Shown: positions 21,183 to 33,470 of the stretch, piece by piece
How the letters are laid out: every line of letters begins with the position of its first letter
How positions within the stretch are numbered: the first letter of the stretch is position 1
Assembly: GCA_958296165.1 (NCBI GenBank)
Contig: OY282447.1
Coordinates: 868,001 to 932,000 of the forward strand
Direction of reading: 5' to 3'
Length of the DNA stretch: 64,000 bases
Origin: an uncultured Pseudomonadales bacterium
GTDB lineage: Bacteria > Pseudomonadota > Gammaproteobacteria > Pseudomonadales > Azotimanducaceae
Made by a program: the position numbers and the translations under genes
Notes under the pieces: generated by a model
Database searches by the model: none
Seen by the model: the letters and a program-made list of their open reading frames with translations, nothing else
What the model was told of the DNA's origin: nothing

Positions 21183-23846
21183 TCAGTTCGTGCTCACCTC
21201 CAGGCTCAGGCTGTAGCTCACGCCGACGTTGTAGCGTTCGTAAAGCAGGCCGCCTTGACGCCACAACACGTCGTCGTCGATCAGATTCTTCGCCTTGAAC
21301 TCCAACTCCATCGGCGTGCCGAACAGATCGAACACATAGCGCACCAGGAAATCGAGCCGACCGCGCGCCTGCTCGACGATGTTGGGGGCGTTCTCGGCGC
21401 CCACCAACACGATGCGCTCGCCGGTGTAGTTGTAGGCGAGCGAACCTTCGACGCCCCGGCCATGGTCGGTGTAGGCGAGAATCAAGTTGCCGAGCACATC
21501 CGATTGGCCGCTGAGACTGCGCTCGTTCTCGTACAGGCGGGCGATCTGGCGCGAGCCCGTTACGTGTACGTCGGCCGCGGTCTCGCCGTCGCCGAACAGC
21601 GTCACGCTCGATTCGATGAGCGAGAGGTTGGCGTTCAGCACAAAGAAATCCCAGGCCGCGCCCCAGCCGAACCAACTGCCTGGTTCCAGCGCCTTGTTCA
21701 GCTCCACCTCGACGCCGCTCAGCTCCGCTTCCTCGCCGTTGAACCATGTGTAGATGTCGTTCTGCGCCTGCACCTTGCCGATCTCGATGGGGTTCTCGAA
21801 GGTCTTGCCGAACAAGCCCACCGAAAGGCTGTCCTCGGCCCCGAAGTACCACTCCCAGCGGGCATCCCAGTTGTCCACCCTGGCCGGCGTGAGGAATACG
21901 TTGCCACGGTAGAGGTTGGAGTCTTCCGGGTTGCGGATGGTGGTGCCGGTGATTTCCAGCAGGCTCGGCCGGTTCAGAGTGCGCGAGTAGGCGAGGCGCA
22001 GCTGCATGTCGTTGATGAACTCGAAGGTCAACGATGCGGCCGGCAACGTGTCGCTGTAGTCGCGGCTGACCGCATTGTTGGAGTCTGGCGCGGTGTTGCC
22101 GCCGTAGGCGTCGGCAAACAACGTCGCTTCCTCTTTGCGGACGCCAGCCGCGGCGCGGATGCGCGGCGTGATCTGCACGTCTACGCCGGCGTAGTACGAG
22201 ACGGTCTCGTCGCCCGAATCCGCGAAGGGAAAGATGCCGCTGGCATTGGCGGCGCCGGCGGAGAAGTCGCGCACGTCCAGATAGCCCTTGCCCCAGTTGT
22301 CCAAGCCGAACAGCTGCCACGGCGTCATCAGCGCGACATGCGACGGCGCCGCGGATGTGATGTCGAAGCGGAAGAAGCGTGTACGGCTCTCGCGCAAGCG
22401 TTCGTAGGCCGAGCCGCCGAACTCGACAACGACGTCCGTGGCGGCCAGGTAGAGCGGAATCTCCACGTCGATGCCGTACTCGGCGATGTCGTCGTCGAGC
22501 GTGGCATAGACGCGATCCGGGGCTTGGAAGACTTCGCGCAGGTCGCCCGCAGCCTGCCGGCTCGGCGTTACCGCTTCCTCCAAGCCTGCCGAGTTGTCGG
22601 CGTAGGTGTAGGTGCGGGTGTCGGGCGCGTCTCGGCTGGCCGCGCCGGCGGCGGCTCGCCAGCTGACGCTGACCTGCTCGATGTCGCCGATGTTGAAGTA
22701 GTGCTCGCCCTTCAAGATCGTGGAACGAATGAGGTTCTCCGTCCATTGGAAGCGGTGGCTCACGACGCGCGTGCCGTCGGAGATGTCGTCCTCGCTGGAG
22801 AGGCCCCGCAAGCGCTGCGTCTCGTCGTCTGTCTGGGCGAGATTCACTTGCGAGATCTGCACCGAGTGACCGTCCAGGAACTCTACGCCTAAGTTGAGGA
22901 AGCCGCTCCAGTCGATGGTCTGACGAGTGGTGAACTGCTCGTAGTCCACCGTTTGCGTGCTGCCGCCATCGACGCCCGTGAACTCGTAGCGGCGGAAGTC
23001 CTTGCGGCGGTTGCTCCAGTTGTTGCCGTACCTGCCGGCGGCCAGCAGCCCAAGGCCGACGCCGTTGCCGAAGTCGCGGCGCCAGCCCAGCTCGCCGCTG
23101 CCGCCCAAGTTCGGTTTCAGTTCCTGCTTCGCGTATACGTCCCAGAAGTTGAAGAAACTCGCCCCCAGCGCCGCGCTTTGCGGCCAGGCAGTCGCTTCGA
23201 ACTGCTCGCTCGTCATGGCTTGGATGTTGGTCGGCTGCAAGCGCGTGCCGTCGTCGAAACCCCAGTTGTCGGCTAGGCCGCCTCGATAGGAGAGCCCGCT
23301 GCCGCCGGTGGTTTCCGAGTCGCCGCCGATACGGAGTTGCGCTGAGAGATAGCTTTGGTCCGGCGTGGGGCGGGTGCGGATCATCACGGCACCGCCGCTG
23401 AAGTCGCCCGGCAGGTCGGTCGAATAGGTCTTCTGCACCAACAGGTTGCGGACGATGCTCACCGGTACGATGTCGAGCGGCACCGTCTTCTGGAACGGCA
23501 CCGGCGACGACAGCCGCGTACCGTCGAGCAACGTCGACGAATAGCGCTCCCCCAAGCCGCGCACGTAGATGTATTTGTCGCCCACCAGGCTCAGGCCCGT
23601 AACGCGGGAGAGTGCGCCGCCGACGTCCGTGTCGGTGAGCAGCGACAGTTCCTCGTAGTCGAGCATGTTGGCGACTTCCGACGTGATGCGTTTGTCGCCG
23701 GGGACGAATTGGCCGAGCACCACCACTTCCTCGACCGGCGCCAGTTCCGATGGGTCGTACTCGGGCTCCTGCGCGGAGGGCGCTGCGAGCGGAAGGGCCG
23801 CCAGCGCTGCGAGCCCGACTATGCGGTTGAGTCTCACGCGTCGCAT
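21183..23846 (-). CDS. TonB-dependent outer-membrane receptor
   Basis: An 887-residue outer-membrane receptor with a signal peptide (LAALAALPLAAPSAQ), a TonB-box-like EEVVVLG near residue 40, a plug domain (DVGGALSRVTGLSLVGDKYIYVRG, DIVPVSIVRNLLVQKTY, DFSGGAVMIRTR) and a large beta barrel (SLTFEFINDMQLRLAYSRTLNRPS). It is of the type that takes substrates not predictable from sequence. The C-terminus ends SYSLSLEVSTN instead of the usual aromatic residue. It begins only 4 bases after a giant repeat lipoprotein, so the two are surely co-translated and probably act together at the cell surface. Confidence 0.93.
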   Translation of the reverse strand: MRRVRLNRIVGLAALAALPLAAPSAQEPEYDPSELAPVEEVVVLGQFVPGDKRITSEVANMLDYEELSLLTDTDVGGALSRVTGLSLVGDKYIYVRGLGERYSSTLLDGTRLSSPVPFQKTVPLDIVPVSIVRNLLVQKTYSTDLPGDFSGGAVMIRTRPTPDQSYLSAQLRIGGDSETTGGSGLSYRGGLADNWGFDDGTRLQPTNIQAMTSEQFEATAWPQSAALGASFFNFWDVYAKQELKPNLGGSGELGWRRDFGNGVGLGLLAAGRYGNNWSNRRKDFRRYEFTGVDGGSTQTVDYEQFTTRQTIDWSGFLNLGVEFLDGHSVQISQVNLAQTDDETQRLRGLSSEDDISDGTRVVSHRFQWTENLIRSTILKGEHYFNIGDIEQVSVSWRAAAGAASRDAPDTRTYTYADNSAGLEEAVTPSRQAAGDLREVFQAPDRVYATLDDDIAEYGIDVEIPLYLAATDVVVEFGGSAYERLRESRTRFFRFDITSAAPSHVALMTPWQLFGLDNWGKGYLDVRDFSAGAANASGIFPFADSGDETVSYYAGVDVQITPRIRAAAGVRKEEATLFADAYGGNTAPDSNNAVSRDYSDTLPAASLTFEFINDMQLRLAYSRTLNRPSLLEITGTTIRNPEDSNLYRGNVFLTPARVDNWDARWEWYFGAEDSLSVGLFGKTFENPIEIGKVQAQNDIYTWFNGEEAELSGVEVELNKALEPGSWFGWGAAWDFFVLNANLSLIESSVTLFGDGETAADVHVTGSRQIARLYENERSLSGQSDVLGNLILAYTDHGRGVEGSLAYNYTGERIVLVGAENAPNIVEQARGRLDFLVRYVFDLFGTPMELEFKAKNLIDDDVLWRQGGLLYERYNVGVSYSLSLEVSTN

Positions 23847-23850
23847 TCGA

Positions 23851-26800
23851 TTACTGAACCCCTACCGTCCAACCGGTGCCCCATGCTTGGACGTTGGAAC
23901 CCACGATGGCACTGCCGGCGTGGTCGAACTGCGCTGGCAGCGCCACTGGGCTTGGCGTCGAGCCATCTTGAGTGACGTTCGCGGCGGCGTCGAGAAACGC
24001 CTGCACGGCGGCTTCGTCGTCGCCCTCGTTGACGGTCGGGCAGTCGAGCCCCACGCCGTGGAACTCGATGCGCGTACCGAGGTGATTCAGCGACTCGCCC
24101 TGCACGCGCAAGCAGCGCTCGGAACCGGACACCATCGAGTTGAAGAGGTGCAGACCGGTGCCGCGCCGCAGGCGGATGGCGCGCTCGTCCGACTTGCCGA
24201 GCATGGTCATGTTGGCGATGAATGGCTCGGCGATGGGCGTTGCCTGTTCGCTGCCTTCGCGATTGTCGGCTTCGATCATGTTGTCGCCGGCGCTCGCCGC
24301 CTGCTCGATGTGCAGGTATTGGACGCTGCCGGTCCAGCCGTCCGTCCAGTCCAGGCTGTCGTCGGCGTTGCCGACCAGCACGACGTGGCGCGCGTGTACC
24401 GTGCCGCCGAAGAACTCGACGCCATCGTCCAAGTTGTTGTAGACCTCGATGTAATCCACCGTGGTGCCGTCGCCAACGCCTTGGAAAGCAATGCCGTTCA
24501 GCTGGTTCTCCGGGTCGACGTTGGCGCCGGCGTACTTCACCACCACGTAGCGCAGCGTACCGCTGGAGTCGTTGGGGTCGGCGCCGCCGAACAGGCCGGA
24601 ATTGGCTTCGCCTTCCTTGGTGCATGCGGCGCTGCCGCCGGCGGCACCTTCCGGGCAATCGTTGATGGGCGCGTGGCCGTTGATCACCAGGCCGCCCCAC
24701 AGCCCGCGCACGTTGGGCCGATCGGCGATGTCGTTGGTGATGTCGGCCGCGGCGGTGAACGTGATCGGAGCATTGGCGCTGCCGTTCGCTTCGATTCGGG
24801 CGCCGCGCGAGACGACTAGGAAGTCTTCGGGGTTGTCTCCGATGATGGTGGTGCCGGATTCGATGCTCAGCACGGCGCCGCTGCGATCGTCCGCCATGTC
24901 GCCCACAACTACCTTGCCGTCCAGGACGTAGTAGTTGCCGCGCGTGAGGGTCAGCTCGCCGCTGATGGTGCCGGCAAGCCGGCAGGCGCGGCGTCCGCCG
25001 ATGGAATCGATTTCGGTAGTGCCGGCAGGGCAGGCGAAGTCCGCCTCCACGCTAGGCATGCCAACGGTCCAGCCCGCGGTCCAATCTTCGTCGGCGTTCT
25101 CCACGGCGCCGATGTAGTCGGTGGCGTCGAAGAAACCGTCCGCGCCAAGGGCCACGGCGCTCACTGCTTGGCCGGTAGTGGAGACGTTGCTCGAGGCGAG
25201 CAGGCTGTTGATGGCGGCAACGTCGTCGCCTTCCACCACCGTGTCGCAGTCGAAGCTGACGCCGCCGAATCGAATGCCGGTGCCGAGCTGATTCAGCGAG
25301 TCGCCTTGGATGCGCAGGCAGTTCTCGCTGTCCTGCACCACCGAGTTGTAGAGTTCGAGGCCGGCGCCGCGGCGCAATCGGATGGCGCGTTCGCCCGCTT
25401 TGCCAGTGAGCGTCATGTTGGCGATCTTCGGCAGCGAACGGGGCGTTGCGGCCTCATCGCCTTCGCGGTTGTCGGCTTCGATGCCGTTGTCGCCGGAGTC
25501 GCTGGCCTGGTCGATGACCAGATACTGAATGCGGCCCTGCCAGCCGTCGGTCCAATCGAGCGAGTCGTCGGCGTTGCCGGTGAGCACCATGTGCTTGGCA
25601 TTCACCGTGCCGCCGAAGAACTCGACGCCGTCGTCTAGGTTGTTGTGGACTTGGATGTAGTCCAGCACGGTGCCGGCGCCCACGCCTTGAAAGGCGATGC
25701 CGTTCAGCTGGTTCTCCGGGTCCACGTTCGAGCCGGCGTACTTCACCACCACGTAGTTCAGCCTGCCGCTGGAGTCGTTGGGATCGTCGCCGCCGAACAG
25801 GCCGGAATTGGCCTCGCCTTCCTTGGTACATGCGGCGCTGCCGCCGGCGGCGCCTTCGGGGCAGTCGTTGATCGGCGCGTTGCCGTTGATGACCAAGCCG
25901 CCCCACTCGCCGCGAGTTGTGGCGATGTCGGCCTCGCCAGCCAAGTCCGATTGACTGGTGAACACCACGGGGGCGGTGCGCGTGCCGTTGGCGACGAGCT
26001 TCGAGCCGCGCGAAATCACCAGGAAGTCCACGTCCGTGCCGCCGAACACAGTGGTGCCGGCCTGCGCCGTCACGGTCGCCGTGTCTTCGTTGTCGCCGCC
26101 CACCACCACTTTGCCGACCAGTTCGTAGAGGTTGTTGCTGCTGAGCAGCATGTCTTGCGTGATCGTGCCGGTGAGTTGGCAGATGCGCCTGCCGTTCAGC
26201 TGCCGACTGGACGCGGTGCTGCCCGCCGGGCAGCCGAAGTCCGGCTGCGACGGCTTGCTGACCGAACCGCGATAGGTCCAGCCTGCCGCCCAGTTGTCGG
26301 CACCGAATGCGCCGACGTAGTCGGTGTTGTCGAAGAATCCGTCGCTGAGCGCAACCGCGTCTACGCGATCGCCGTTCTCGGCTACGTTGGCGGCGCCGGC
26401 GAGGTAGTTGGCCACCGCGCCGTCACCGTCGCGGTTGTGCATTTGCGCACAGCCGAAGCTGACGCCGGCGATGGTGAGGTCGGTGCGGAGCAGGTCCCGA
26501 CTGAGGCCGTCCACGCGCAGGCAGGTGGCGGCGCCGTCCACGAAACTGTTGCGCAGCCGCAGGCCGGTGCCACGACGCAGGCGCAAGGCGTTTCCATCCG
26601 CCTTGCCGTGAATGGTCATGTTGGCGATCGCGGGTTTCGAGCGCGGCGTCGCGTTTTCGTCGCCTTCGCGATTGTCCGCCTCAATGGCGTTGTCGGCGGC
26701 GTCGGTTTGTTCGATGTAGAGGTATTGAATGCGGCCTTGCCAGCCATCGGTCCAATCGAGCGAGTCGTCGGCATTGCCTGTGAGCACGAGGTACTTGGCG

Positions 26801-27717
26801 TCCACGGTGCCGCCGAAGAACTCCACGCCGTCGTCGAGGTTGTTGTGAACTTGGATGTATTCCACCGTGGTGGCGTCGCCGACTGCTTGGAAGGCGATGC
26901 CATTGAGCTGGTTCTCGGGATCGACGTTGGCACCTGCGAAGCGCACGCTTACGTAGCGCAACGTGCCGGAGTTGTCGTTGGCGTTGGCGCCGCCGAACAG
27001 GCCGGAGTTGGCTTCGCCTTCCTTCGTGCATTGCGCCGTGCCGCCTTCGGCGCCTTGCGGGCAGTCGTTGATGGGCGCATAGCCGTTGATGACCAAGCCG
27101 CCCCAGAGGCCGCGGTCGCCGCCTTCGACGTTGCCGGTGACCTCGGTCTTGGCGGTGAAAACGATGGGCTGTTCGGCGGTGCCGTCGGCTATGAGCGCAC
27201 AGCCGCGCTCAATCACGAGAAAGTCCTCGTTGCTGGCCCCGACCACCACGGCGCCGGGCGCAAGCGTTAGCTGGCAATCCGGCAAGCTGCCGCCAGCGCT
27301 CCGCGCCGCACCGTTCGGCGGCGTGATGCGGGCCGCGCCGCCGCTGATCTCGAAGATGAAGTCGTTGCCAAGCGTGACGCCAGCCGGGTCGATGGCGCCG
27401 TCTTCCGTCGCGCTCACATCGCTCACATCGCTCACATCGATGGTGTAGATCGGCTTGTTCGCAAATGCGGCGCTGGCTGTCGTGCCGGAATCGACGATGA
27501 TGTCGCCCAAGCTAGCGGGGATCACGCTGGCGACTGCGTTGCCGCTACTGCCGGTGCCGTCATCACCTCCGTCATTACCACCGCCGCCGCCGCCGGACAC
27601 CGGCACTGCAACGACTACGGATCCGGGCGAGGCGTTTTCCGACGAGCCGCCGCAGGCGGCGATCACCGTGGCGGCCAATGCCAGAACGCCCAGCTTCAGG
27701 ATGTGTAGTAGGTTCAC
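23851..27717 (-). CDS. Giant lipoprotein with three beta-helix-like repeats
   Basis: A 1288-residue lipoprotein starting at GTG 27717 behind gagggg; an upstream in-frame ATG at 27756 would place 13 extra residues before the signal. The lipobox is ATVIAAC (Cys22). A Gly/Asp-rich linker (GGGGGGNDGGDDG) leads into three homologous units of about 380-400 residues. Each unit contains GLWGGLVINGxAPINDC, CTKEGEANSGLFGG, NVDPENQLNGIAFQ, NNLDDGVEFFGGTV and NADDSLDWTDGW, a pattern expected of a right-handed beta helix rich in Asp/Asn and likely to bind calcium. Paired cysteines are conserved in each unit (NDCP...QC, CPAG...C). I infer surface or periplasmic exposure; the ligand is unknown. Single-unit relatives are often encoded near TonB receptors. 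Confidence 0.85.
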   Translation of the reverse strand: MNLLHILKLGVLALAATVIAACGGSSENASPGSVVVAVPVSGGGGGGNDGGDDGTGSSGNAVASVIPASLGDIIVDSGTTASAAFANKPIYTIDVSDVSDVSATEDGAIDPAGVTLGNDFIFEISGGAARITPPNGAARSAGGSLPDCQLTLAPGAVVVGASNEDFLVIERGCALIADGTAEQPIVFTAKTEVTGNVEGGDRGLWGGLVINGYAPINDCPQGAEGGTAQCTKEGEANSGLFGGANANDNSGTLRYVSVRFAGANVDPENQLNGIAFQAVGDATTVEYIQVHNNLDDGVEFFGGTVDAKYLVLTGNADDSLDWTDGWQGRIQYLYIEQTDAADNAIEADNREGDENATPRSKPAIANMTIHGKADGNALRLRRGTGLRLRNSFVDGAATCLRVDGLSRDLLRTDLTIAGVSFGCAQMHNRDGDGAVANYLAGAANVAENGDRVDAVALSDGFFDNTDYVGAFGADNWAAGWTYRGSVSKPSQPDFGCPAGSTASSRQLNGRRICQLTGTITQDMLLSSNNLYELVGKVVVGGDNEDTATVTAQAGTTVFGGTDVDFLVISRGSKLVANGTRTAPVVFTSQSDLAGEADIATTRGEWGGLVINGNAPINDCPEGAAGGSAACTKEGEANSGLFGGDDPNDSSGRLNYVVVKYAGSNVDPENQLNGIAFQGVGAGTVLDYIQVHNNLDDGVEFFGGTVNAKHMVLTGNADDSLDWTDGWQGRIQYLVIDQASDSGDNGIEADNREGDEAATPRSLPKIANMTLTGKAGERAIRLRRGAGLELYNSVVQDSENCLRIQGDSLNQLGTGIRFGGVSFDCDTVVEGDDVAAINSLLASSNVSTTGQAVSAVALGADGFFDATDYIGAVENADEDWTAGWTVGMPSVEADFACPAGTTEIDSIGGRRACRLAGTISGELTLTRGNYYVLDGKVVVGDMADDRSGAVLSIESGTTIIGDNPEDFLVVSRGARIEANGSANAPITFTAAADITNDIADRPNVRGLWGGLVINGHAPINDCPEGAAGGSAACTKEGEANSGLFGGADPNDSSGTLRYVVVKYAGANVDPENQLNGIAFQGVGDGTTVDYIEVYNNLDDGVEFFGGTVHARHVVLVGNADDSLDWTDGWTGSVQYLHIEQAASAGDNMIEADNREGSEQATPIAEPFIANMTMLGKSDERAIRLRRGTGLHLFNSMVSGSERCLRVQGESLNHLGTRIEFHGVGLDCPTVNEGDDEAAVQAFLDAAANVTQDGSTPSPVALPAQFDHAGSAIVGSNVQAWGTGWTVGVQ
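27412..27438 (-). repeat. Three 9-bp repeats in the giant lipoprotein
   Basis: The unit gctcacatc (plus-strand sense) occurs three times without mismatch, encoding DVSDVSDVS near residue 100, before the first large repeat unit. Confidence 0.9.
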
Positions 27718-27800
27718 GTTCCCCTCGTGTGCCCAGAGATGCTTCGGCCGCAACATAGAGATGCCTCGTGACGAGATCGTGACATCGCGGATAGTTCGTT

Positions 27801-29812: not shown

Positions 29813-31867
29813 TTACAGCGGCTTTTCCAAAGAGAGGTAGAGCAGCCGATTGGCATAGGCCGGGCTGGAGCGCCCTGCTGCGTATACGTTGCGGATGCTC
29901 GCCGCGCCGATGCCGTCGATGGCCCAGTCCCTAGCGCGGTAGCGTTCGATGTAGGCGCCGGCCAACACGGCCAGGCCGCTCTTCAGCCGGTGACGCACAC
30001 GGATGTCCAACGATCTCTGCCGCGAGACCAAGTCCGGGAAGTGGCTAAGCGCCGCCTCGAACATCGTCGCGTAGCTGCCCAACCCGTCCGAGGAAGCGTA
30101 GTCCAGCGTTACGTCGACCCGCCAGCGCGGCACTCGGAAATCAAGCCGGGCAGCGGCCGTCGCCACGGTGTCGCGAGTGTCGTAGCGCCAGTCCGCCGCC
30201 GCGAACGTGGCGCTGCCTGTCGTCGTCGAGCGACGCCCGTCGACGCCATACGAGGCGGTTGCCGACGCATGGCCCAAGGCATAGACGAAGTCGACGTTCC
30301 AGCCGCGCAGCGCGGCGCGTTGCAGGCCCAGAGCGGAGTCAGGGTAATCGTGCTCGCGCGCACTCGCTTGCAGGCCAGCGGCAAAGGCGCCGCGCCGATA
30401 GCGCAGCGAGCTCTGCCAGACGGTCTCGATGCGGCGCGCTTGATAGTAGCGGCGGGTGAGCGGATTGTTCGCCGTGTTGGCGACGAAGTCGGCCGCGCCG
30501 CGCCGTGCCCGCGAGTGCTTGCCGCTCAACAGCCAGTCGCCGAAGCGCCGGCTCACTTCGAGATAGGCACGGCGTTCTCGGTTGCGGCCGATCTCGAGGT
30601 TGGAGCGGGCCGCGTCCCGACCGACGAGACCCGCGGCCAAGCGCAGGCGTCTCGGCGTCCGATAGCGCAGGCGTAGGGCGGTTTGGCGACGCTTGAACGA
30701 AAAGCCGCGCGCCGTCTGCGCCGCCCCAGGCAACAAGTCGCCCAGCACCGGCACAAAGGCTGCGCCAGTGCGGCTGTCGGCGCGGTCGTCGGCCGTGTGG
30801 GACACGGTCAGCCGCAGCCCGGAATCGAATCTGGTGAGCAGGATCACGCGTCCGTAACGAGAGCGGCGAGAGCCGTTCAAGCTGTCCGCTGGCGGAGGCA
30901 CGTCGAGGCGCGAGTTAGTTGTATAGGGCAGAAAGGGTGCGTCTTGGCTGGTCTCGCCGCCAGCGAGCGTAGTGCGGAGCGTGGTGCGCGCGCCGAGCTG
31001 AAACTTGGCAACGAGGCGCAGCAAATCGGTGGCGTTGTCCGGCGCACCGGCGCTGCGCCTCGTCACCAAGCCCTGATAGGGATTCTGCCAGACCAAAGCC
31101 GCCTCGCCGTTCGTAAACGAACGCCGCTCGACGGACACATCGAGCAACGCTCGTTCGGCCTTGTAGCGCCAGCCGAGCAATAGCTCTTGCGTGCGTTGAT
31201 CGACAGGCTGCGGCAGCGCCGCGGCCTGGTAGAAGGCGTCGCGGTAGGTTTCCACAACGCCTGTCTTGCGCTCTTGCGAGTAGCCCACACGGATGTGCGT
31301 ATGCGGCGTTGTCGCGATCCAAGCGCCCACGGCGCCGTGGCGGCGCTCGGTTGCCAGCACGCTGGCCGCATCGTTCGCCGACGGCGTTGTTTGTGCGCCG
31401 GCGAAGCCGCGCCGCCAATCGCTTGGCAGCGCAAGGGTGCCGGCAATGCGTCGGAACGGGAAGCGGCCGTCGTTGGCGATGCGGCGCGGCAACTGCGCCA
31501 AGCGCAACTCAACGCCATAGCGGTCGGCCCGACTCGCAGCCAGGGTGGCGATGCGCGAATCCAAGCCAAGATCGCGTCCGGCCAGCCGCCAGACAGTGCC
31601 CGATTCGCTCGTGGCCTGCCAGCCGGCGTCCAGGCGCAGGTATTGTCCGGCTTGGTCGATGCCGGTGTCGCGCCCGAAGCGGGCTTCGCCGTATGCAGAG
31701 TCCATGCTGCCGACGACGATTTCGCCCGAGCGCGCTTTCGCCTTGTCGAACTCGCACAGTCGGCAGCGCCAGCGACTCGGGTCTGCATTGGCGTAGTTCA
31801 CCGCGTAGTCCGCCCACGCAGCGGCGGTCAGCACCAGTGGCAGCAGCCAGACGATCGCCCTTGCCAT
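29813..31867 (-). CDS. MtrB/PioB-type outer-membrane porin of a cytochrome conduit
   Basis: MtrB-family porins form a beta barrel that sheathes a decaheme cytochrome and carries electrons across the outer membrane. From ATG 31867 the 684-residue protein has a signal peptide (VWLLPLVLTAAAWA) and the N-terminal CxxC (Cys35-Arg-Leu-Cys38) characteristic of MtrB/PioB. The rest is a long series of amphipathic beta strands ending YLSLEKPL. It starts four bases after the decaheme cytochrome gene. An upstream ATG at 31912 overlaps that gene and is less likely. No outer-surface MtrC-like cytochrome is nearby. Confidence 0.88.
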   Translation of the reverse strand: MARAIVWLLPLVLTAAAWADYAVNYANADPSRWRCRLCEFDKAKARSGEIVVGSMDSAYGEARFGRDTGIDQAGQYLRLDAGWQATSESGTVWRLAGRDLGLDSRIATLAASRADRYGVELRLAQLPRRIANDGRFPFRRIAGTLALPSDWRRGFAGAQTTPSANDAASVLATERRHGAVGAWIATTPHTHIRVGYSQERKTGVVETYRDAFYQAAALPQPVDQRTQELLLGWRYKAERALLDVSVERRSFTNGEAALVWQNPYQGLVTRRSAGAPDNATDLLRLVAKFQLGARTTLRTTLAGGETSQDAPFLPYTTNSRLDVPPPADSLNGSRRSRYGRVILLTRFDSGLRLTVSHTADDRADSRTGAAFVPVLGDLLPGAAQTARGFSFKRRQTALRLRYRTPRRLRLAAGLVGRDAARSNLEIGRNRERRAYLEVSRRFGDWLLSGKHSRARRGAADFVANTANNPLTRRYYQARRIETVWQSSLRYRRGAFAAGLQASAREHDYPDSALGLQRAALRGWNVDFVYALGHASATASYGVDGRRSTTTGSATFAAADWRYDTRDTVATAAARLDFRVPRWRVDVTLDYASSDGLGSYATMFEAALSHFPDLVSRQRSLDIRVRHRLKSGLAVLAGAYIERYRARDWAIDGIGAASIRNVYAAGRSSPAYANRLLYLSLEKPL

Positions 31868-31871
31868 TGCG

Positions 31872-32855
31872 CTAGCGCCGCAGCAGATTCCCGGACGGAT
31901 GGTTGGAGCCATGCACCTGGGCGTGGCAGTTCAGGCAGGCATTGGCGAACAGAAACTCCGCCCGCGGCTCGGCCGGGCTCGAAGGCAGTTGCGGCCAGCT
32001 GCGGTGGCCAACCGAGGAATGGCAGGCTTGGCAGAGTTGCGGTGCTCGGCGCACCAGCAGCGCCGGCTGGTTGGCGCCGTGCGGCTCGTGGCAGATGCCG
32101 CAATCTTCGGCGGCGGGAGCGTGTTCCCACAGGAACGGGCCGCGCAGCTCGGCGTGACAGCGCGTGCAGGCTTCGTTGCCAGCGCTGTCGCGCAGCAGCG
32201 CCTCGCCACCGTGCGGGTCGTGGCAGTCTCGGCAAATCAACTGGTTGCGGCGCATCGGGTGCGAGGACGTCTTCAGCATATCCGCGCCGACGCTAGCGTG
32301 GCAGCCAACGCACTGCGAGGCCTGGCCGTTGCGGCTACGCACGGCATCCACCGCAGCATGCACGCGGTGGCAGTCGGCGCAGGCCAAGCCCGCCTGCTCA
32401 TGTGTACTGCCGGCCCAGCGGGCGCGGCCGTAGTCGGCATGGCAGGCGAGGCAAAGCTGGTTCTGCAAGTCCGCCGCCGCGTTGCCGCGCTGGCCGAAGT
32501 TGACAATCGGTTCACGCGCCGCGCCATCCCTAAGAATGCGCCGCCCGTGCTCGCCTACCGGCCCATGGCAGGCTTCGCACTGCAAGCCGGCCGGATAGGC
32601 AGCGGCCGAGCCCTGTGCGAACGGCGAGCCGGCGACGTGCGGGTGGCCGTGCAGCGTCTCGAACACCGCCGCCGTTGGAAACGGCTCTTCCTCGTCGTGG
32701 CAAGTGAGGCACAGGTCTGCGCCGCGGCGGGAATAGTCCCCTGCCGCCAGTTTGGCAACCAACGTTGCGTGTACGTCTGCCGCCGGATCGCCACTCGCAA
32801 GGGATGTCGCCAACAGCGCTGCCAACGCTAGGATCGAAGCGGCAGTGCGGCTCAT
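31872..32855 (-). CDS. Decaheme c-type cytochrome, MtrA/PioA-like
   Basis: This 327-residue periplasmic cytochrome has ten CxxCH heme motifs, with first cysteines at 49, 93, 135, 159, 182, 208, 230, 252, 275 and 307. A signal peptide precedes them (ILALAALLATSLASG). Number, spacing and length match MtrA, MtoA, PioA and DmsE, which form a heme wire within an MtrB porin. Those relatives move electrons out (metal or DMSO reduction) or in (Fe(II) oxidation); sequence alone does not say which applies. It sits between a diheme cytochrome and the porin in one operon. Confidence 0.92.
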   Translation of the reverse strand: MSRTAASILALAALLATSLASGDPAADVHATLVAKLAAGDYSRRGADLCLTCHDEEEPFPTAAVFETLHGHPHVAGSPFAQGSAAAYPAGLQCEACHGPVGEHGRRILRDGAAREPIVNFGQRGNAAADLQNQLCLACHADYGRARWAGSTHEQAGLACADCHRVHAAVDAVRSRNGQASQCVGCHASVGADMLKTSSHPMRRNQLICRDCHDPHGGEALLRDSAGNEACTRCHAELRGPFLWEHAPAAEDCGICHEPHGANQPALLVRRAPQLCQACHSSVGHRSWPQLPSSPAEPRAEFLFANACLNCHAQVHGSNHPSGNLLRR

Positions 32856-32867
32856 CGGCCAAGACTC

Positions 32868-33470
32868 CTAAAAGTCGCCGGCGCTCACATAGAGCTCGAT
32901 GATCGCTTGCTTGTCCGCCGCCGAGAGCGTCTCGTACTTGCGCTGCATCTTGGCGGTCATCGGCCGCGTGCCGGCGTCGAAGTTGCGGAACTCCGTCTCG
33001 AGGTATTCGCGCCACTGGCCGGCGGTGATCGCCAAATCCGCTTCCGGCACGCTGCCGCCCTTCGGATGGCACTTGGCGCACTTTCTGGCGTGGATGACGG
33101 CGCCGCGGCGGGCCAGAGCGGCGTCGAACGCCTGCAAGTGCGGTCGCCACTGCTGCTCCGAATAATAGATGGCGACGGCCTCGATCTCGTCCACCGCGAG
33201 CGAGCGCACGATCGCGTTCATGTCCGTTTCCGTACCGTCGGCAAGCTGCGCCGGCCGAGCAGGACGCTGGCCGCTGGCGTACAACTCGAGCAAATCCATG
33301 ATGGCGAACTCCGTGAACCCGCCGATGGAGGGTACCTGCGGGTTCTCGCTGCGCCCACCGGCACCGTGGCACTCGTTGCACTGCTGCGCTAGCTGCGCTC
33401 CGTTTTCCGCGCCGAAGCACGCGTGCGCGAGGCCGGCCAGCAGGAGTTGGAGCAGGGCGCGCGTTGTCAC
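32868..33470 (-). CDS. Periplasmic diheme cytochrome c
   Basis: A 200-residue exported protein with two CxxCH motifs (CNECH at 31-35 and CAKCH at 131-135), each in a class I cytochrome domain of about 100 residues, like a c4-type diheme cytochrome. The first domain has NPQVPSIGGF after the heme and the second has PMTAKMQ, which may supply a Met ligand. It heads the diheme cytochrome-decaheme-porin operon with a 12-base gap, and is therefore the likely electron carrier between the inner-membrane chain (bc1) and the decaheme protein. Confidence 0.88.
   Translation of the reverse strand: MTTRALLQLLLAGLAHACFGAENGAQLAQQCNECHGAGGRSENPQVPSIGGFTEFAIMDLLELYASGQRPARPAQLADGTETDMNAIVRSLAVDEIEAVAIYYSEQQWRPHLQAFDAALARRGAVIHARKCAKCHPKGGSVPEADLAITAGQWREYLETEFRNFDAGTRPMTAKMQRKYETLSAADKQAIIELYVSAGDF

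Follow-up and report, generated by a model that had tools for sequence, protein, structure and literature searches.

A triple-repeat lipoprotein and its TonB-dependent receptor, an ElpS-like candidate pair for phosphorus scavenging

We analysed a stretch of 64,000 nucleotides from the genome of an uncultured Pseudomonadales bacterium (the window). On its reverse strand a gene for a large lipoprotein is followed by a gene for a TonB-dependent receptor (TBDR). The features of this pair are:

27768..27784, (-) strand: Pho-box-like site TGTCACGATCTCGTCAC, two GTCAC half-sites with an 11-nt period
23851..27717, (-) strand: gene for a triple-repeat, predicted surface lipoprotein, ElpS-like, 1288 aa, recognised by its ORF, GTG start, lipobox and repeats
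27655..27717, (-) strand: signal peptide of 21 residues, MNLLHILKLGVLALAATVIAA-C
27652-27654, (-) strand: codon of the lipid-attachment Cys22
27622..27630, (-) strand: SPG motif in the linker, 8 residues past Cys22
26245..27537, (-) strand: repeat 1, with a divergent N-cap, residues about 61-491
25054..26244, (-) strand: repeat 2, residues 492-888, modelled as a right-handed beta-helix
23854..25053, (-) strand: repeat 3, residues 889-1288
21183..23846, (-) strand: partner TBDR gene, 887 aa, with PF00593 and PF07715

The GTG start of the lipoprotein gene has AGGGG upstream, the lipobox reads ...VIAAC22GG, and the linker after Cys22 is Gly-rich and contains the SPG motif. The lipoprotein stop lies at 23851 and the TBDR ATG at 23846, leaving a gap of 4 bases. 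A three-repeat lipoprotein four bases before a TBDR had been reported in the first-pass annotation, and the reading frame, the lipobox, the identities between the repeats and the PF00593 and Plug matches of the receptor bear this out. When the homologous N-termini were searched, [SAT]PG was found within 25 residues after the cysteine in 79 of 114, whereas a control stretch gave 4 of 175. The SPG motif after the lipidated cysteine recurs in family members from alpha- and gammaproteobacteria, and it is possibly a surface-sorting or cleavage signal.

Each of the three repeats is about 400 residues long. At the protein level repeat 2 shares 63% identity with repeat 3 and 55% with repeat 1, and DNA identity between the repeats is 78-80% over cores of 560-690 nt. 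The cysteine pairs that had been noticed earlier are indeed conserved: among the 129 aligned repeats, nearly all have C128/C139, and the majority have C5/C22 and C309/C333. Furthermore, N181, D204, D205, E208, D226, D227, D230, E256, D258, N276 and R291 are invariant (129/129), and all three window repeats retain these polar residues. They are spaced about 20-30 residues apart, close to the length of one coil of the helix, and so may form a stacked polar ladder. Searches of Pfam, NCBIfam and PDB sequences gave no credible relative of the lipoprotein. Weak Pfam matches to FeS or mono-CXXC proteins fell below the cut-off and were taken as chance. The AlphaFold2 model of repeat 2, made with 129 homologous rows, had a mean pLDDT of 97.5, and its best structural matches were right-handed parallel beta-helices (VIA Z about 22). 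This is the fold predicted for repeat 2, in line with the beta-helix-like repeats first described from the sequence. Foldseek gave no match for the lipoprotein model at E<=0.001, and the closest beta-helices were tied in score, so that we claim no specific functional relative. Membership in SusD is ruled out by the absent Pfam match together with the beta-helix model, as the annotation had also held.

The likeness of the repeats at the DNA level had been taken as a sign of recent amplification. A maximum-likelihood tree was built from 93 repeats. In it the repeats of 24 gammaproteobacterial loci cluster by their position (1, 2 or 3), with repeats 1 and 3 each forming a strongly supported group, and dS between the window repeats is 0.6-0.8. 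The grouping by position and the dS values show that the triplication is old, which rules out a recent amplification. As read from these sequences the triplication in the window is ancient, and the DNA likeness of its repeats mostly reflects protein conservation. In the same tree the repeats of two-repeat alphaproteobacterial and three-repeat Alteromonas proteins pair within the protein or a close lineage. Either the repeats multiplied several times independently, or gene conversion has blurred their history in lineages other than that of the window.

The partner receptor matches PF00593 (E 1.4e-26) and Plug (2.8e-6); only Plug and barrel models match its 887 residues, and it has no credible PDB sequence relative. 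Its structure model (pLDDT 86.5) is nearest in fold to PhuR, FecA, PqqU and TbpA, and XusA is also among the structural matches. These nearest folds belong to haem, siderophore, PQQ and transferrin receptors and were counted against a phosphorus ligand; the fold search with the receptor model should be read as excluding an unusual receptor only and as giving no pointer to the ligand. Alphaproteobacterial partner TBDRs score about 280-440 bits against a profile of the partner receptor, and the eight TBDRs of the window's own genome that match PF00593 best (43 stretches match it in all) score below 27 bits. These profile scores set the partner TBDR apart as a distinct lineage. Among 75 related loci, the TBDR gene comes immediately after the lipoprotein gene, on its 3′ side, in all that extend far enough to judge except L086, where it lies upstream; the pairing of lipoprotein and receptor thus held up in the homolog survey. 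The distances of the two proteins rise together (Spearman 0.59; permutations reached 0.15 at most), a correlation that shared descent alone can give. At two loci (L043 and L142) the lipoprotein coding region is broken over frames beside an open TBDR frame, which reflects either a decaying gene or a sequence error. At four Halieaceae loci (L034, L035, L036 and L041) the gene is split in two: the first part encodes a small SPG-bearing lipoprotein, and the following part a secreted protein that has the three repeats and a signal peptide of its own.

The Pho-box-like site TGTCACGATCTCGTCAC is located 51-67 nt before the lipoprotein GTG. The strict pattern YGTCAYN5YGTCAY has six matches in the 5.07-Mb genome, one of which is the window site, and the reversed control pattern has three. 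The other five strict sites are not clearly upstream of phosphate genes. Because of the control matches and the positions of these five sites, the single site alone is weak as a regulatory signal, and we put weight on its conservation across homologs. Of 67 upstream regions (the 250 nt before each lipoprotein gene), 22 contain GTCA-N7-GTCA; other spacings occur in 0-3 of them, and the motif in 0.7% of random windows. A PWM scan detected the Pho box in 80/133 upstream regions at p<=0.05, where the per-locus p values are conservative because background windows could overlap the tested region. Many homologs, including most single-repeat Caulobacterales loci examined, have no recognisable Pho box, and this was counted against control by PhoB. 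PhoB is present in the window's genome, just over the cut-off, so that both features of a PhoB regulon, the upstream site and the regulator, occur here.

On the A. macleodii plasmid pBGP9 the genes lie on one strand in the order phoB, phoR, pstS-like, 2OG oxygenase, three-repeat lipoprotein, TBDR, DUF3450, ExbB, ExbB, ExbD, TonB and TPR. L027 and L071 have a PhoB equivalog next to the pair, and L163 has one next to the lipoprotein gene; in Pseudoalteromonas a DUF3450-TonB operon comes before the pair. The window's own genome has phoB-phoR next to a DUF3450-ExbB-ExbB-TonB-TonB-TonB-TPR operon elsewhere (G000:C1:2,946,222-2,955,993; L139:8223-17994), in which three similar TonB genes stand in tandem. 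Literature on DUF3450-type TonB operons yielded an iron paper only and no phosphate role. In this assembly, which is one contig and 98% complete, there is no PstB over the cut-off, no PstS-type PBP_like_2 and no match to a Na/Pi cotransporter.

One member of the family has been described before. ElpS (CC0170 / CCNA_00169) of Caulobacter crescentus is a surface-exposed lipoprotein of about 50 kDa as secreted, and its production is specific to phosphate starvation (Le Blastier et al. 2010, PMC2996285). The induction of the CCNA_00169 promoter by phosphate starvation was also measured in another study (PMC5172544). In C. crescentus elpS is followed by the TBDR gene cc0171 and then by gspC-N, and relatives of ElpS were reported from Shewanella and Bacteroides (PMC2996285). 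A gsp operon after the TBDR is found in C. crescentus and some others, not in all relatives. By homology and gene order, and not by direct comparison with CC0170, the window pair appears to belong to the ElpS/CC0171 family. Against the window repeat profile, alphaproteobacterial proteins whose genes lie in the ElpS order reach about 1e-79 at best in the one-repeat form and 1e-116 in the two-repeat form. In the order of Maricaulis the domain is encoded in 60 of 80 genomes, in a one-repeat (about 510 aa) or two-repeat form, and at six one-repeat loci the lipoprotein and TBDR genes are followed by genes in gsp-like order. The genes after the pair in L128 are gspD, E, F, G and L, gspE adjoins the pair in 10/11 alphaproteobacterial genomes checked, and a Sphingomonas record has the lipoprotein-TBDR-gsp order too. 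A Parabacteroides plasmid carries TBDR-lipoprotein. Family matches, some of them weak, were obtained in 24 of 274 gammaproteobacterial genomes. Within the window's genus the three-repeat form occurs in the window's genome (G000) and in G094, with fragments in G100, and several other genomes encode one divergent copy (about 500-580 aa), in most cases with an adjoining TBDR. Two-repeat members were also seen in genomes of 1.2 and 0.9 Mb with 97% completeness (G324 and G180; L174 and L175); streamlined cells thus retain the system.

Like ElpS/CC0171, the window pair consists of a gene for a (here predicted) surface lipoprotein and then a TBDR gene with apparently phosphate-linked regulation (in the window, a Pho box only), and homologous Caulobacterales loci keep the published gene order down to the gsp operon. 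With regard to the surface exposure and protease-dependent release known for ElpS, the window protein shows a lipobox and a linker. In contrast to the single domain of ElpS, the window protein has three domains, and its pair has a clear Pho box and no adjacent gsp genes; in some of its relatives the pair instead adjoins phoBR and a TonB operon. Downstream of the window TBDR, genes for ribosomal proteins and others with housekeeping roles take the place of a gsp operon, and the gspD of this genome, at 3.7 Mb, is away from the pair, which was counted against uptake. The suggestion of an undescribed uptake system therefore stands only in part: ElpS with CC0171 is a published member for which a phosphorus role was suggested in 2010 (PMC2996285), with no function reported in the literature since then as far as could be found. 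New compared with that work are the triple-repeat form, ancient by its sequences, the Pho box with conserved spacing and the phoB and TonB-operon neighbours.

Because of the linkage to a TBDR, the Pho box, the adjoining phoB genes and TonB operons, the induction of ElpS by phosphate starvation and the invariant repeat residues, we consider it fairly probable that the genes encode a PhoB-controlled, TonB-dependent lipoprotein-TBDR pair for phosphorus scavenging. Metal or carbon limitation had been proposed as the condition for expression, whereas the Pho box and the neighbours point to phosphate limitation. Regulation and linkage are deduced from sequence evidence, and ligand, hand-off and transport we infer. 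Upon phosphate starvation PhoB would bind the Pho box and the operon would be transcribed. The lipoprotein would then reach the cell surface, as was shown for C. crescentus ElpS, held by its N-terminal lipid and flexible linker. Here the three beta-helix domains may bind a phosphorus compound via the invariant Asp/Glu/Asn ladder and the one invariant Arg, probably through a metal such as calcium, and the triple-repeat form may multiply binding sites or reach. The ligand would be passed to the paired TBDR and imported with power from TonB/ExbB/ExbD, the energy probably coming from the DUF3450-type TonB operon beside phoBR. Two results from C. crescentus count against this: a change in intracellular phosphate was not detected, and cc0171 was apparently constitutive by RT-PCR (PMC2996285). 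More tentatively, and with doubt prevailing, the beta-helix lipoprotein and its dedicated TBDR/TonB might replace diffusion porins as a phosphorus importer of Pseudomonadota and be the main PhoB-controlled scavenging route in this genome, in which neither PstB nor PstS was detected.

It is unlikely, though the best of the alternatives, that the lipoprotein acts at the cell surface as an enzyme, or helps secreted phosphatases as a co-factor, by hydrolysing or presenting organic phosphate, with the TBDR importing the product or just sharing the operon. ElpS overproduction increased alkaline phosphatase activity in the supernatant; however, neither refolded nor immunoprecipitated ElpS showed phosphatase activity, and deletion of elpS did not lower the activity (PMC2996285). 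An acidic cluster and an Arg that are invariant in all repeats, in a fold frequent among polysaccharide-active enzymes, would suit an enzyme, whereas the near-universal pairing with a TBDR suggests binding and transfer. Rather improbable is the import of a non-phosphorus ligand (metal chelate, glycan or cofactor) that is needed more in phosphate stress. The cargo of the nearest solved TBDR folds, the frequent glycan binding among beta-helices and the missing Pho boxes in some family members are consistent with such a ligand, but several lineages carry phoB or phoBR-pstS-like genes next to the pair, and for ElpS iron depletion caused no induction and phosphate salts caused repression (PMC2996285). 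A structural or adhesive surface protein for stalk or envelope remodelling, with a merely co-transcribed TBDR, would fit the presence of ElpS and CC0171 in stalk extracts at low phosphate (as cited in PMC2996285) and the differing repeat numbers among lineages, yet it is very improbable: across classes the partner TBDR is conserved and diverges in step with the lipoprotein, and the invariant polar ladder residues suit ligand binding more than adhesion.

Lipoprotein-TBDR pairs are known from other uptake systems. SusD of the SusCD glycan importers is an alpha-helical TPR-type lipoprotein, BtuG is a beta-propeller and not a beta-helix, and the iron-acquisition pairs XusA-XusB and TbpA-TbpB, which likewise combine a classical TBDR with a surface lipoprotein, have other lipoprotein folds and iron ligands. 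While SusCD shares the gene pair arrangement, the window has a beta-helix lipoprotein without a SusD Pfam match and an 887-aa TBDR of Plug and barrel domains only, without the SusC-type N-terminal extra domain; SusC is a larger TBDR (PMC10404256). The BtuB-BtuG vitamin B12 importers resemble the model of the window pair in having a surface lipoprotein lid on a TBDR of regular size (PMC10404256). Lipoprotein-capped transporters seem exclusive to Bacteroidetes according to the same paper, whereas the window pair is found in Pseudomonadota. If the phosphorus-scavenging reading is true, lipoprotein-assisted TBDRs would exist outside Bacteroidota, where PMC10404256 thought them confined, and TonB transport would gain phosphorus compounds as a nutrient class. 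A testable proposal for ElpS, TonB-driven phosphorus uptake across the outer membrane, comes from the Pho box, the TBDR lineage and the neighbouring phoB genes and TonB operons. The lipoprotein domain matches no Pfam or NCBIfam family.

Elsewhere in the window, at 29813-33470 on the (-) strand, genes for an outer-membrane barrel of MtrB/PioB type, a multihaem cytochrome and another CXXCH-type protein lie in a row, possibly encoding an extracellular electron-transfer conduit.
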